Shown here piece after piece: positions 8,885-31,042 of a DNA stretch of 37,834 nucleotides. The number at the start of each line of letters is the position of its first letter. The first letter of the stretch is position 1. Source of the DNA: a virus; the IMG/VR virus record IMGVR_UViG_3300034101_000904, positions 1 to 37,834 of that record; one strand, given 5' to 3'. The notes beneath the pieces were generated by a model. The model had not been told where the DNA came from. It worked only from the letters and a program-made list of their open reading frames with translations, and searched no databases. The translations under genes were made by a program, and so were the position numbers.

Positions 8885-9550
8885 TTAACCAGCGGTCGGA
8901 TATTTCTGCTGCCAAAGATAGCCTGCGAACTCTCCGAAACGGAACACCTCGATTGAGCCGAGAGGTATTTCGGAGGGCGCGAGAGGGCGCTGCGCGCCCG
9001 CAAGCGAGAGTTCCTTCGCGATGATATCTTTCGGCTCGGCTCCCGAGGCTACCTTCCCGGCGATAGTAAGACGCGAGAGAACGGTCGCCGGATATCCAGA
9101 GACCGGCTGTAGCTTATCGAAGATCACGATTGCGCCTCCAAGCCTACACATCCGCTGCAGCTTTTGGATTAGTTCCGCCCGCTGGTTCGGAGTCATAAAC
9201 ATCAAAACCAAAAAGCAGATCGCGAGATCGAAACTCTTGTACTCGAAACTGCAGGCGTCCTCGCAAACGACGCGCGGAGGTCCGGCGTACTTCTCGCACA
9301 TCTCTTTCGAGGATTCGATTGCGATAAACTCCGCCTTGCGCTTTTCTAGCGTGTCGGAGATCGAGCGCCCAATGTTTCCGGTCGACGCTCCGATATCGTA
9401 GACTCGTCCTCCCTCGGGAATGTAATGCCGCGCAATATGCGCGACAAGGTTAGTCGTTAGGTCATACCACGGGAGTTGTTCTCGAACGTGATGGTCGAAA
9501 GCGTCCGCAATCTCTGCGCTATTAAAGGTCCAATCATTCGGGATTTTCAT
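8885..9550 (-). CDS. CmoA-like enzyme, candidate carboxy-SAM synthase
   Basis: A 221-residue Rossmann-fold class I methyltransferase homologue. It begins MKIPNDWTFNSAEIADAF, closely matching CmoA, which opens with DWTF. PWYDLTTNL matches the PGY region of CmoA, GGRVYDIGASTGNIG matches its SAM loop VYDLGCSLGAA, and the C-terminal EVFRFGEFAGYLW matches its FQCFNFGSLVA. E. coli CmoA turns SAM and prephenate into carboxy-SAM for the tRNA enzyme CmoB. No CmoB homologue is present here; a cytosine methyltransferase with an altered motif X lies two genes upstream. As I recall, Arg199 of E. coli CmoA contacts the carboxylate; the matching place here (IIAKELSLAG) lacks a clear Arg, so activity is unproven. 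It starts one base after the asparagine-synthetase-like stop. Confidence 0.78.
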   Translation of the reverse strand: MKIPNDWTFNSAEIADAFDHHVREQLPWYDLTTNLVAHIARHYIPEGGRVYDIGASTGNIGRSISDTLEKRKAEFIAIESSKEMCEKYAGPPRVVCEDACSFEYKSFDLAICFLVLMFMTPNQRAELIQKLQRMCRLGGAIVIFDKLQPVSGYPATVLSRLTIAGKVASGAEPKDIIAKELSLAGAQRPLAPSEIPLGSIEVFRFGEFAGYLWQQKYPTAG

Positions 9551-9551
9551 T

Positions 9552-10334
9552 TCAGAGACGGTTGTAAATCGAGATCACAGACTTAAACGCGCCGGTGTTT
9601 AATTTCGACTTCAGTAGCCCGTTAAAGTGCTCCGCAATTCCGCTATCGCCTAACTGCAAATTCGTATGCGGCAAAATCCGAATCGCCTCAAATTGCTGCG
9701 GGAACGCGCGCAGGATAGGTTCCTTTTGCCTCGGTCGGTTTACCTCGTTCCACGTTGTCCCGAGGAACTCTTCCTGCATCGCTCGTTCTAGGAAAGGCAT
9801 AGCCGCCGTCTTTCCTAACTCCGCTGCGAGCGCGTTATGGATCGGCTTTTGAGCGTAGGTCGGCGACTGATAAAGTCCTCGCCGGAAGACGTCGATGCGC
9901 TCGCGGAAGTGAATCATTCCCTTTTTAGAAATGCAGAAGTGACCGTCGGCGCCCATACCGGAAGCGACCACCTTCTCCCGAGTCGCCCGATAGGCGTAGA
10001 GCATAGGCCAGCCGCACTCAAAGTCGGTCTTCTTCCTAGCTCCGAGCTTCTTCAGTTTCCGCAAATCCGCGACCAGTTGATCTAAATCCGTCGGCAGAAA
10101 TACCGGAACGAAGTCGCACTTGAACCGCGCCGCGTTTCTCCGAGCGAGGGAGAAGTCGGTCGACAGCTTTCCGTCGAGCATAAAGCTGTAGGCGGTAACC
10201 GTCTTTCCGCTCTCTAGCAGCGCGAACATTACCGACGCGGAATCAATTCCCGAGCTAAGGAGCACGGCAACCTTTTGTTCCGGTATCGCTTGCGCCCACC
10301 GCAGGAGTACCGAGCGAACATCCGGCTTGTTCAT
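9552..10334 (-). CDS. Asparagine-synthetase-like PP-loop amide-forming enzyme
   Basis: A 260-residue protein matching the C-terminal synthetase domain of AsnB-type enzymes. The PP-loop is LLSSGIDSASV (residues 25-35), and VASGMGADGHF near 123-133 matches the SGEGSDE block of AsnB. PRQKEPILRAFP near 201-212 matches the K-x-LLR segment. Enzymes of this family adenylate a carboxylate with ATP and let ammonia or an amine attack it. The N-terminal Cys glutaminase domain is absent, so free ammonia, an amine or a partner must supply nitrogen. The start overlaps the methyltransferase stop (ATGA). The family is clear; a DNA-borne carboxymethyl group as substrate is inferred only from neighbours. Confidence 0.8.
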   Translation of the reverse strand: MNKPDVRSVLLRWAQAIPEQKVAVLLSSGIDSASVMFALLESGKTVTAYSFMLDGKLSTDFSLARRNAARFKCDFVPVFLPTDLDQLVADLRKLKKLGARKKTDFECGWPMLYAYRATREKVVASGMGADGHFCISKKGMIHFRERIDVFRRGLYQSPTYAQKPIHNALAAELGKTAAMPFLERAMQEEFLGTTWNEVNRPRQKEPILRAFPQQFEAIRILPHTNLQLGDSGIAEHFNGLLKSKLNTGAFKSVISIYNRL

Positions 10335-11392
10335 TTTCCAAGTTTCCTCAGAATCTCGTCGCGAACGGCGCCAGCAATATGACTCATCATTACCGGAGGC
10401 ACGGCTCGTCCGCATCGCTCCCATTGCTGCGCGTAAGTTCCGGTCAAACTAAAGTCGTCTGGGAATCCGCAAAGCCGCTTTAGTTCTGCGATAGAAAACT
10501 TCCGCTTCTCAAGAGGATGGCAAACGCTCGCGAGTCCGGCGTTACCTCCCGCAGCGGTAACGGTCGGGCACGGTTCGTCGAGGCTAGGACGAACCAGCTG
10601 AAAGTATTTGTCGGATTGAGTTCCCGGTCCTCCCATCCGATCCCACTCACGCCCGGTCGCGTGCCGTTCCATACTCGATTCGGGCTCGATACGATTCTTC
10701 AAAGGAGCGTCGAAGATCGCGTTACGAATCGTGAACCGATACGGCAACGGCTTCGGGTGTACGGGATCGATCCGCAAATCGTTCCGCGTTCCGACGAAGA
10801 TTGTTCGTTGTCTTCCCTGCGGGACTCCGAGCCATTGCGCGTCGAGTACCCGACACGATACTCGATAGCCGCACGACTTTAGCTCCTTTAGGATATCGAG
10901 GAAGTAACCCTTTGCGGTTCCCTTAACTAACCCGCTGACATTCTCGGCGACGAAAACCTTCGGCTGTAGATCGCGCAGGAGCCTCGAAAACTCGAAAAAG
11001 AGGTCGTCGGTTCTCTGCGATTTGTCGGAGTATTTCTTAACCTTGCCCCAACCCGCCTCCCGTTTCCCGGCTGTAGAGAACGAGGCGCACGGAGGCGATC
11101 CATCGAACAGGTCGAGATCGCCAACCTTCAGTCCGGTATCTCGTAGGATGTCAGCCGCCGTTACGCTTCGGATATCCCTCCCGTCTACAACCGTATGAGC
11201 CGCTGCGTTTGTCCGGTAACACTCGCGCGCCGCATCGATAAACTCCGACGCCCAGACTACCTTAAACCCGGCCATCCGGTAGCCGGTCGAACTTCCTCCG
11301 CATCCCGAGAAGGTACTCGCGCAAGTAAAGCCGTTCCAAGGGAGGGCGCGTACCTCCTCCATACTTGGTACGCGATACAGCGGCTTTGTCAC
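10331..11392 (-). CDS. Cytosine-C5 DNA transferase with Arg in motif X, candidate carboxymethyltransferase
   Basis: A 353-residue C5-cytosine methyltransferase homologue. Motif I is TFSGCGGSSTGYRMAG (residues 27-42), motif IV GSPPCASFS with catalytic Cys102, motif VI ENV at 150-152, motif VIII VPQGRQR (190-196). A target-recognition region spans about 210-300 and motif X is at 325-343. In motif X the near-invariant Asn of GNAVPP is Arg329 (CGRAVPP). In engineered M.MpeI the corresponding Asn374-to-Lys change permits transfer of a carboxymethyl group from carboxy-SAM to cytosine. This gene starts with GTG inside the ParB stop (GTGA) and ends overlapping the PP-loop gene (ATGA). Fold and chemistry class are sure; carboxy-SAM use is inferred. 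Confidence 0.9.
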   Translation of the reverse strand: MTKPLYRVPSMEEVRALPWNGFTCASTFSGCGGSSTGYRMAGFKVVWASEFIDAARECYRTNAAAHTVVDGRDIRSVTAADILRDTGLKVGDLDLFDGSPPCASFSTAGKREAGWGKVKKYSDKSQRTDDLFFEFSRLLRDLQPKVFVAENVSGLVKGTAKGYFLDILKELKSCGYRVSCRVLDAQWLGVPQGRQRTIFVGTRNDLRIDPVHPKPLPYRFTIRNAIFDAPLKNRIEPESSMERHATGREWDRMGGPGTQSDKYFQLVRPSLDEPCPTVTAAGGNAGLASVCHPLEKRKFSIAELKRLCGFPDDFSLTGTYAQQWERCGRAVPPVMMSHIAGAVRDEILRKLGK

Positions 11393-11895
11393 GACGGTTT
11401 ACCGCTCCATTTGTAACCGCACTTCGGGCATTCGTGTTCCGTCTCGATGTTCTCGTCGACCTCTTGGAAGTCTTCCGGAGGCGCGACCTCCTCCTCGCCT
11501 GCGACGCTTTGCGTAAGCCGCGCAAGATCGTCCTCGTTGAATCCGATATCGGCGAGGTCGAACGATTCCTCCTTTAAGGACGCGAGGACTTCGCCAAGCT
11601 TCTCGTCCCACTCGGCAAGCTCAGCGGTTCGGTTATCGGCGATCCCAAACGCCGTAGCGCCAACGCCAGTCAGGTCGCTCCGAACAATTTCAATCTCCGT
11701 CCACCCAATCGACTTGGCGGCGGCGAGCGTCCCGTTACCCGCGAGCACGACGTTGTTGCGGTCGACGACCAGCGGCTTCTGCTGACCGAACTTCCGAAGC
11801 GACGCCGCAATCGCGTCGAGGTTCCGCTCCGAATGTTTTCGGAGGTTCGCCGGGTCTTGCGATAGCGACTGAATCGAGATGGTCTCTAGTTTCAT
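11389..11895 (-). CDS. ParB-like domain protein with C-terminal zinc ribbon
   Basis: A 168-residue protein with a ParB/Srx-type N-terminal domain: SIQSLSQDPANLRKHSERNL, then LRKFGQQKPLVV and VLAGNGTLAAAKSIGW, followed by GIADNRTAELAEWD. In many phages this module is fused or next to a DNA methyltransferase. Residues about 150-165 contain CPKCGYKW, half of a zinc ribbon. It could direct the modification enzymes to DNA, bind a nucleotide, or regulate the cassette; none is proven. Its stop overlaps the GTG start of the methyltransferase gene. It lacks the helix-turn-helix of plasmid-partition ParB. Confidence 0.8.
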   Translation of the reverse strand: MKLETISIQSLSQDPANLRKHSERNLDAIAASLRKFGQQKPLVVDRNNVVLAGNGTLAAAKSIGWTEIEIVRSDLTGVGATAFGIADNRTAELAEWDEKLGEVLASLKEESFDLADIGFNEDDLARLTQSVAGEEEVAPPEDFQEVDENIETEHECPKCGYKWSGKPS

Positions 11896-28739: not shown

Positions 28740-29336
28740 TTAGCTGCTCGGCGGAGGCGCCTCGGAGACTTGATCGTCGTATCGGTAGGTGTGCAGCACT
28801 TTCCCGATGTGGATTTCTCCGGTTGCGTCCATCACCAAATGCTTCGCCCACGCCCAATCCTCGCCGTAGTTGTTCGCAGGGAACCGAACCCGCCGAGCCA
28901 TATCGCCACGCCACGCGCATACGTGCCACGCGCTCCGCTTGAATGATGGCTGCTTGAATGGCTCGTTCGGATGCCGAAGCGAAAAGGAGCAGATGGATTC
29001 GACTCCGTTAACGATGGCGCGTTGATCGAAGGTGATGACCGAGGTCCGACGCGACGCGACCGCGATGGTGTCGGTTAGCAGCTGGAGGTAGTCGTCGGAT
29101 ACCAGATCATCATCATCGCAGAACGCAACGAACTCTCCGCGCGACATCTGCACCAGCGCGTCTCGCTTCTCGCCGATAGTTCTCATCCGGTTATCAAGAA
29201 AGGTCAGTACCTCGACCGCCTGCGGATTTTCCAGCTTTGTGATCTGCGCCTCTAGCGTAGAGAGCAGAGGACACAAACAGCTAACGATCCGGCGCGGCGT
29301 CGCCGGTATCAGGACGGAGAGGGCTGGTCGGTGCAT
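28740..29336 (-). CDS. Family 2 glycosyltransferase (short)
   Basis: A 198-residue GT-A fold protein: MHRPALSVLIPATPRR at the start, EVLTFLDNRMRTIGEKRDAL, then the nucleotide-sugar/metal motif EFVAFCDDDDLVSDDYL at Asp74-77 and a later GEDWAWAKHLV that may supply the catalytic acid. The start shares one base with the stop of the upstream glycosyltransferase (TAATG). With it, this gene sits inside the structural block, so virion glycosylation is a reasonable guess; a role on host surface sugars is also possible. Confidence 0.85.
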   Translation of the reverse strand: MHRPALSVLIPATPRRIVSCLCPLLSTLEAQITKLENPQAVEVLTFLDNRMRTIGEKRDALVQMSRGEFVAFCDDDDLVSDDYLQLLTDTIAVASRRTSVITFDQRAIVNGVESICSFSLRHPNEPFKQPSFKRSAWHVCAWRGDMARRVRFPANNYGEDWAWAKHLVMDATGEIHIGKVLHTYRYDDQVSEAPPPSS

Positions 29337-31042
29337 TAGGGAGCGTCTGGGTTGCGGCTACGGAAGAGAGCGTTGCCCGCTTCATATCGCGCCTGCTGGT
29401 TGTTGTGTCGATACGTTGCATCCATCGGCGCCTTGTTGAAGCAGGGATGGCAGTGCTCGAACGTTAGCCAAGACCGAGCGTCGATGATGACCTTGTCCCG
29501 CGCGGCGCGGTACGAAAACTCATTATCCGAAAAGACCGACTCGTAGCCTTCGTGGAATACCTCGTTGCCCTGCTGCTCGTAGCGTGCCCGCGAGAGGATC
29601 GCCATACAGAGCAGATCGTCCTTCCGATGTCCGTCTGAGATAGCCACGACGACCGGCTGCTTGTTTAGATCGACGCCCTCGCAGGCGTTAAGCAGCAACT
29701 GATCCCAGCCGCGCACTGGCATCCAATCGTCCGAAAGCTGCACCAGTAGCTCTCCGCGCGCCATCCGAGCGGCGCCGTTCCACGCCGATACGCAACTCTG
29801 CTTCGGGCTGAGATAGGTCGAGAACTGCTTGCCCATCTCGACCGAAGTCTTGTCGTCGAGGTCGATGGCGAAGATGTGCTCAACCCGAGTCGGGTCTGAC
29901 GCAGTGTTTAGCCACGCCTCTCGCGTCTGCACCGCCTTTGATGGGCGTCCTCGCGTCGCGTGAAGCAGGCTGATCTTCGGAGTTGCGCCTGCGTGATATT
30001 GCCACTGCGCGAGATCAGCTGCAGCGCGGTTCCCGACCGCTCGGCAGGCGCGCGCGTACAGGTCGTATCCCGCCCAGCCGTACCACTTCACTTCGTGCGT
30101 CCACGGTCGGTCCTTGGGCAACGGTTCTCGCATCGAAGCCATTTGGTCCGCCCAGTATTTTGCCTTCTCATATTCCTTGAACTCGAAGTGCAGGAGGACG
30201 AGAGCGGCGATTGCTTCGCGGCACCACGGATAGATGCCGTGCGCCTCCATCAGCCATACGTTGGAATCCCGCCTCGACGTACTGAGCTTCGCCAAATTCA
30301 GCAGCGTCTCGTACCGGAACGCTGGCTGTAGATTAGGGAAAGCCAGAGCGACCTTGCCGAACTCTACGGCAGCGTCCCGGTTGCCCGAGCAGAAATGTTC
30401 TTGGTGAATGTAGAAATATTGCGTCGCGACTTCCTTTACCGAGTTCGCTAGGATTCGGAGATTACGCTTCCGGTTCTCCTTCTTAACCTCCAGCGGTGCG
30501 TGCAGCCAGACGGGTTGTTCCCAGTCTTCGTGCCGGTCGCCTTGAAGCAGCAGCAGATTTTCGTGAACCGAGTGGTGCCACTTTCTACCTTTCTGGTAGA
30601 GATCGCGACGGATCGCTCGCTCCCGGTACAGCTTCTTTCCCGTGCCCTGCACATCGTACAGGCACCGCACCATCGCCAGATCTGCGGCGGCTTTCTCCAG
30701 TTGTTCGCGGAACGCCTTTGTATCGCCAGAGAACTTGTCGTCGCAATCGCACCAGATCAGCCAGTCGCCCGTGCCGTTATGAAACGCGAGGTTCCGCGCC
30801 GCAGCAAAATCGTCGACGTGATCCCAGCCTTCGGTCCCGACTTCGTTGCGGTACTCACTGACCACGCAAGCGATGCCGCGCTCCTTACACCAGAGTTCGG
30901 CCAGCCCAATAGTGCCATCCGGTTTTGCGCTGCCGATTGCTCGGGTGATCGACAACTCGTCGAAGACTCCGTCGAAGGAGTTCAGCATCCGAACGATAAG
31001 CTGCTCCTCGTTCCCGCAGATGACACAGAGTGAAACGCGCAT
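29336..31042 (-). CDS. Two-domain glycosyltransferase (GT2-TPR-GT2)
   Basis: A 568-residue protein. The N-terminal GT2 domain has MRVSLCVICGNEEQLIVRML and a DxD-like WLIWCDCDDKF (Asp99, Asp101-102); this with WCKERG and FAAARNLAF resembles the SunS-like or protein-glycosylating GT2 group. The middle, about residues 215-340, is helical and TPR-like. A second GT-A domain follows from about residue 350 (PKISLLHATRGRPSKAV), with VQLSDDWMPVRGWDQLL. Two linked sugar transfers are possible. It is the first gene after the capsid terminator, so it needs its own promoter or readthrough. Confidence 0.87.
   Translation of the reverse strand: MRVSLCVICGNEEQLIVRMLNSFDGVFDELSITRAIGSAKPDGTIGLAELWCKERGIACVVSEYRNEVGTEGWDHVDDFAAARNLAFHNGTGDWLIWCDCDDKFSGDTKAFREQLEKAAADLAMVRCLYDVQGTGKKLYRERAIRRDLYQKGRKWHHSVHENLLLLQGDRHEDWEQPVWLHAPLEVKKENRKRNLRILANSVKEVATQYFYIHQEHFCSGNRDAAVEFGKVALAFPNLQPAFRYETLLNLAKLSTSRRDSNVWLMEAHGIYPWCREAIAALVLLHFEFKEYEKAKYWADQMASMREPLPKDRPWTHEVKWYGWAGYDLYARACRAVGNRAAADLAQWQYHAGATPKISLLHATRGRPSKAVQTREAWLNTASDPTRVEHIFAIDLDDKTSVEMGKQFSTYLSPKQSCVSAWNGAARMARGELLVQLSDDWMPVRGWDQLLLNACEGVDLNKQPVVVAISDGHRKDDLLCMAILSRARYEQQGNEVFHEGYESVFSDNEFSYRAARDKVIIDARSWLTFEHCHPCFNKAPMDATYRHNNQQARYEAGNALFRSRNPDAP

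Follow-up and report, generated by a model that had tools for sequence, protein, structure and literature searches.

Four adjoining genes in the DNA of an uncultured phage raise the question of whether they form a pathway that carboxymethylates cytosine in phage DNA and then converts the new carboxylate into an amide. The window, that is, the whole stretch of DNA analysed, is a 37,834-base IMG/VR contig. Its portal, terminase, RecT, exonuclease, RusA, tail and head genes indicate a tailed phage, and its terminase and tail proteins matched only distant phages, at no more than 38% identity. A sequence-only reading had placed three coupled genes, for a C5-cytosine transferase, an AsnB-like synthetase and a CmoA homologue, at positions 8885–11392. 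Pfam and PDB matches confirmed all three there on the minus strand, the synthetase being of a short type.

The same three-gene pathway has been reported in the marine Synechococcus phage S-B43 (Yang et al., Nat Commun, December 2025; PMC12783734). In that system, CmoA was assayed to produce carboxy-SAM, CmoX acts at GC motifs to form 5-carboxymethylcytosine, and CmoY attaches glycine to this base, the glycine amide being detected in virion DNA (PMC12783734). The same study listed 5,615 candidates with SPPC and Arg from IMG/VR and other sources, already pointed out ParB-like neighbours, described a second class of ligase that includes a glutaminase domain, and found CmoY clusters with differing active-site residues (PMC12783734). 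A literature search returned no further report of CmoX or CmoY. The pathway of the sequence-only reading is thus already described, and the window is a new, divergent carrier of it.

The cassette is very probably a phage CmoA–CmoX–CmoY system for DNA hypermodification, accompanied by a ParB-like partner, by which cytosine would be carboxymethylated and the product amidated. CmoA would convert host SAM and prephenate into carboxy-SAM; CmoX, with Arg329 replacing the usual motif X Asn, would transfer the carboxymethyl group to cytosine C5 in certain motifs of the phage DNA; and CmoY would adenylate the new carboxylate with ATP and then join it to an amine, of which glycine is the likeliest. The product would be an amide such as 5-glycylcarboxymethylcytosine, and the phage would probably gain protection from some host nucleases. 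All three reactions have been demonstrated with the S-B43 homologues, and we infer every step in the window's phage from its sequence. The proposed route from carboxy-SAM through carboxymethylcytosine to an amide agrees with the S-B43 experiments (PMC12783734), and the window proteins carry the diagnostic features.

Organization of the Cassette

The four genes are translationally coupled and are transcribed in the order ParB-like, C5-transferase, AsnB-like, CmoA-like (Table 1). The ParB-like gene overlaps the start of CmoX by 4 bases and therefore belongs to the cassette; its product matched Pfam ParB_N at 3e-5, slightly below the family cut-off. The synthetase start overlaps the transferase stop in ATGA, which makes 10334 its most likely start in place of a distant ATG at 10424, and CmoA begins 1 base after the end of CmoY. 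A ParB-annotated neighbour is present in phages PaBG and TurkishDelight, and an unannotated small gene lies at the same place in Mcat8. Elsewhere in the window, two glycosyltransferase-like genes were observed amid the structural genes (28740–31042).

Table 1. Features of the window's cassette and loci of the ParB–methyltransferase fusion in other phages
Feature	Position	Strand	Evidence
ParB_N-like protein, 168 aa, first gene of the cassette	11389..11895	-	phrog_620 ParB-like 2e-42
CmoX, predicted DNA cytosine C5-carboxymethyltransferase, 353 aa, GTG start	10331..11392	-	DNA_methylase 3e-55; 8YF3 2e-66
CmoX Cys102, predicted catalytic Cys of SPPC	11087..11089	-	aligned to S-B43 CmoX Cys98
CmoX Arg329	10406..10408	-	ERCGRAVPP aligned to ERVGRMVPP; position of S-B43 Arg350 and HhaI Asn304
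CmoY, predicted short AsnB-like ATP-dependent amide ligase, 260 aa	9552..10334	-	Asn_synthase 2e-9; phrog_26038 4e-52
CmoY PP-loop SSGIDS, residues 27-32	10239..10256	-	conserved across short CmoY
CmoA, predicted carboxy-SAM synthase, 221 aa	8885..9550	-	4GEK E 2e-12; phrog_4752 2e-46
Fusion loci, viral contigs	L177-L208, L117-L145
Fusion locus, Gordonia phage Evaa	L172:702-2237
Fusion locus, Aeromonas phage HJ05	L173:1032-2624
Fusion locus, Pseudomonas phage SM1	L174:4347-5903

CmoX Carries the Arginine That Accompanies CmoA

The best PDB match of CmoX was 8YF3 (SpCmoX; E 2e-66), ahead of the HaeIII and HhaI methylases. This entry is the crystal structure of S-B43 CmoX, in which Arg350 meets the carboxylate of carboxy-SAM (PMC12783734). 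Both published marks are present in the window protein, namely GSPPC with Cys102 and Arg329 at the position of S-B43 Arg350, and CmoA lies two genes downstream.

As a control, 106 distinct relatives of the main CmoX lineage were collected, comprising 94 with Arg, 11 with Asn and one that ends before the site. Of the 94 Arg-type relatives, 91 had CmoA no more than 3 kb away; none of the 11 Asn-type relatives did. Among the three Arg-type exceptions, two loci are near contig ends and one belongs to a phage with CmoA 13 kb away. The residue and the presence of CmoA each changed about twice on the CmoX tree, too few changes for the phylogenetic sign test, so the tree alone carries no statistical weight. 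A separate C5-transferase lineage, described below, repeats the pattern.

These counts bear on a rival reading, in which the C5 enzyme simply makes 5-methylcytosine and its neighbours serve another purpose. The enzyme is a member of the C5-methyltransferase fold family, and there are Asn-type relatives that lack CmoA; however, the window has Arg where SAM users have Asn, Arg-type enzymes track CmoA in two separate lineages, and the Arg-type CmoX of S-B43 accepts only carboxy-SAM (PMC12783734). We therefore regard an ordinary methyltransferase as very improbable and retain carboxymethylation as the predicted activity. Whether motif X has Arg or Asn, taken with linkage to CmoA, allows carboxy-SAM use to be tested simply from sequence.

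CmoX relatives also occur in bacterial genomes of several phyla. In Yersinia phage fHe-Yen9-02, CmoX (L007:15504-17582) has a long insert immediately before the catalytic Cys: SPP is followed by an insert that starts with C and ends with HN, and then by C. The insert looks like an intein, and split matches suggest the same insert in the CmoX of Erwinia phages.

CmoA and the Absence of CmoB and tRNA Genes

The top PDB matches of the CmoA-like protein were 4GEK (Escherichia coli CmoA; E 2e-12), 4IWN and 1IM8. It falls in the class I methyltransferase fold family (Pfam Methyltransf_11/25, about 5e-9), with CmoA as its closest solved relative. Tyr39, Asp62, Gly64, Ser66, Phe137 and Glu/Asp164 are kept, and Asn132 is absent, as it is in S-B43 CmoA. 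In E. coli CmoA, Arg199 forms a salt bridge to the carboxylate (PMC3663124). The window protein has Glu at this position, and so does the assayed, active CmoA of S-B43; Arg199 therefore cannot serve to recognize phage CmoA.

The E. coli CmoA/CmoB pathway for tRNA cmo5U shares the CmoA fold and the carboxy-SAM cofactor with the window, but it acts on tRNA through CmoB, and the window lacks CmoB as well as Arg199 in CmoA. A role in host tRNA wobble modification, as in bacteria, would fit the PHROGs family name (tRNA methyltransferase). Yet neither a CmoB family member nor a tRNA gene was found in the 37,834-base record, in agreement with the earlier reading, and CmoA is coupled to a DNA C5-transferase in relatives from many phages. 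A tRNA role thus seems scarcely credible, and supply of carboxy-SAM to CmoX remains the favoured function.

Relatives of the Cassette and Exchange of the Ligase

A 39.1-kb contig from another sample has the same gene order and is 98–99.8% identical in the cassette genes. A second relative, also with the same order, shares 77% (CmoX), 95% (CmoY) and 80% (CmoA) protein identity. The presence of the same cassette in independent contigs rules out a sequencing artefact. Compared with the second relative, dN/dS was about 0.03 for CmoX, 0.07 for CmoY and 0.04 for CmoA, indicating purifying selection, with the values for CmoX and CmoA being rough because their dS, at about 3, is near saturation. The dS of CmoY was only 0.41, and its DNA (window 9552–10334 against L010:1711-2490) is 91% identical, compared with only 73–78% for neighbouring genes. 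Given this difference in dS, the ligase moves on its own, and the DNA identities point to a recent exchange of CmoY alone.

The window and S-B43 share the same three families in adjacent genes, SPPC and Arg in CmoX, a short CmoY without a glutaminase domain, and the lack of CmoB. They differ in gene order (X-Y-A in the window, A-Y-X in S-B43), in the ParB-like gene coupled upstream in the window, and in phage type (about 38 kb versus 214 kb), and protein identities are 37% for CmoX, 36% for CmoY and 22% for CmoA, the last being only a distant relationship. The nearest named phage for CmoA is Moraxella phage Mcat8 (KR093632; CmoA 47.5%, CmoX 48%). Its CmoX–CmoA module precedes the terminase genes, the same place as in the window, but it has no CmoY. 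For CmoX, the nearest is Streptomyces phage TurkishDelight (NC_073473; 56%), with the order ParB-CmoX-AsnB-CmoA. Its ligase occupies the position of the window's CmoY but is a full AsnB enzyme that includes a glutaminase domain, which suggests an ammonia-derived amide in that phage. The window, from an unrelated and uncultured phage, confirms that hypermodification through carboxymethylcytosine is a widespread, modular system whose ligase may be swapped or missing.

CmoY and the Likely Amine

CmoY encodes a PP-loop AsnB-type synthetase domain adjoining CmoX and CmoA, the arrangement by which this family is recognized. A phmmer search of CmoY against PDB sequences gave no real match, and the fold of a structure model was compared in its place. 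Across 36 short CmoY proteins, including that of S-B43, S27, G29 and S32 of the PP-loop and K102, R151, K204 and H223, among others, are invariant, and D31 is present in 35. The model (pLDDT 93.6) was nearest to beta-lactam synthetase (E 6e-10), followed by carbapenam and asparagine synthetases, and matched the synthetase domains of beta-lactam synthetase and AsnB over its full length. As in S-B43 CmoY, no N-terminal Ntn glutaminase domain is present; the 260-aa protein starts at the synthetase domain.

The amide of the earlier reading was either carbamoylmethylcytosine or a larger amine conjugate. The lack of a glutaminase domain, together with a fold like that of beta-lactam and asparagine synthetases, favours the amine conjugate over plain ammonia. 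That CmoY forms 5-carbamoylmethylcytosine from ammonia is accordingly unlikely, even though a sister class of full AsnB enzymes with a glutaminase domain lies beside CmoX and CmoA in other phages (TurkishDelight gp124, L014, L042 and others), since the nearest fold, beta-lactam synthetase, joins an amine to a carboxylate.

Within the favoured amine conjugate, glycine is our best guess, at about an even chance. It is possible, on a more tentative footing, that CmoY joins another amine, such as a different amino acid or a polyamine, and so makes a new final base. CmoY is just 36% identical to the glycine ligase, the published survey contains CmoY clusters with other active-site residues (PMC12783734), and CmoY was swapped alone between relatives, as would be expected of an interchangeable part that adds the tail. 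On the other hand, the invariant residues of the 36 short CmoY proteins extend to S-B43, and at a network cut-off of ~30% identity the window CmoY would probably join the S-B43 cluster.

Other contexts of this ligase family were also observed. In Salmonella phage Sen-NF (L008:4836-6359), a CmoY homologue adjoins a 2OG-Fe(II) oxygenase in a stretch without CmoX or CmoA, and an annotated oxygenase is also close to the CmoY homologue of Erwinia phage Yoloswag.

Depletion of Restriction-Type Sites

Several short sites are absent from the window (1–37834): CATG (79–93 expected), TATA (30–34 expected) and CCAGG/CCTGG (49 expected). Among six-base sites, CTCGAG, CACGAG, ACCGGT and CCGCGG are absent (22, 22, 20 and 13 expected, respectively) and GCCGGC occurs once (19 expected). 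GGCC occurs 44 times against 159 expected, and there is no depletion of GCGC, TCGA or CGCG. The near-identical contig likewise lacks CATG and TATA in the part compared; the 77% relative shows no such loss. CmoX could offer TATA no protection, as that site contains no cytosine. The purging of CATG, TATA, CCWGG and other sites indicates that modification is not the phage's only defence; it is either limited to few motifs or insufficient. Another carrier of CmoX and CmoY (L116) has no GATC, GCGC or CCGG.

Possible Wider Use of Carboxy-SAM in Phages

A separate C5-transferase lineage (L093-L106, L212-L262) has GFPC instead of SPPC and reads CGRAVTVNVI where its relatives read CGNAVTVNVI. CmoA adjoins 50 of its 51 Arg-type members and none of its 11 Asn-type members, counts that include six sequences whose slightly different motif was read by eye and several near-copy loci that are not independent events; at the sole Arg-type exception, the contig ends 29 bases downstream. 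Because this lineage is separate from the main CmoX lineage, it replicates the linkage between Arg and CmoA, and the sequence test also works for enzymes, those of GFPC type, that the SPPC search of the published survey would miss. CmoY is also present at some of the Arg-type loci.

A further association involves a fusion of ParB with a class I methyltransferase (about 504 aa; phrog_5475), followed by CmoA (phrog_4752) without CmoX and often accompanied by a HAD-like protein (phrog_32036). Among 25 window-like CmoA loci without CmoX, 23 have the fusion and an adjacent HAD-like gene; no fusion is visible in the remaining two, whose contigs both end close upstream of CmoA. Conversely, CmoA is in the locus of 31 of 32 fusion relatives at 35% identity or more, and likewise in those of Evaa, HJ05 and SM1 (Table 1). 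The low-confidence structure model of the fusion (pLDDT 69.5) supports its two-domain make-up only. No mention of this association was found in the main text of PMC12783734, where no N6-adenine or N4-cytosine candidate is reported either. The phrog_5475 fusion is a candidate for a second DNA modifier that uses carboxy-SAM.

Taken jointly, the window's cassette, of a known type, may be one branch of a wider phage use of carboxy-SAM, which would include the GFPC lineage with an independent Asn-to-Arg swap, the phrog_5475 fusion, which may carboxymethylate a target other than cytosine C5, and a CmoY that may add an undescribed amine; we consider this combined view evenly balanced. As findings, the GFPC Arg swap and the association of phrog_5475 with CmoA look newer than the window's cassette. 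Distant C5-methyltransferases were also observed beside CmoA and CmoY in Staphylococcus phage vB-SscS-F1 (L006:4553-5560) and at L112:4033-4998; at the Arg position, one of this pair has Gly as aligned and the other reads AGRSI.
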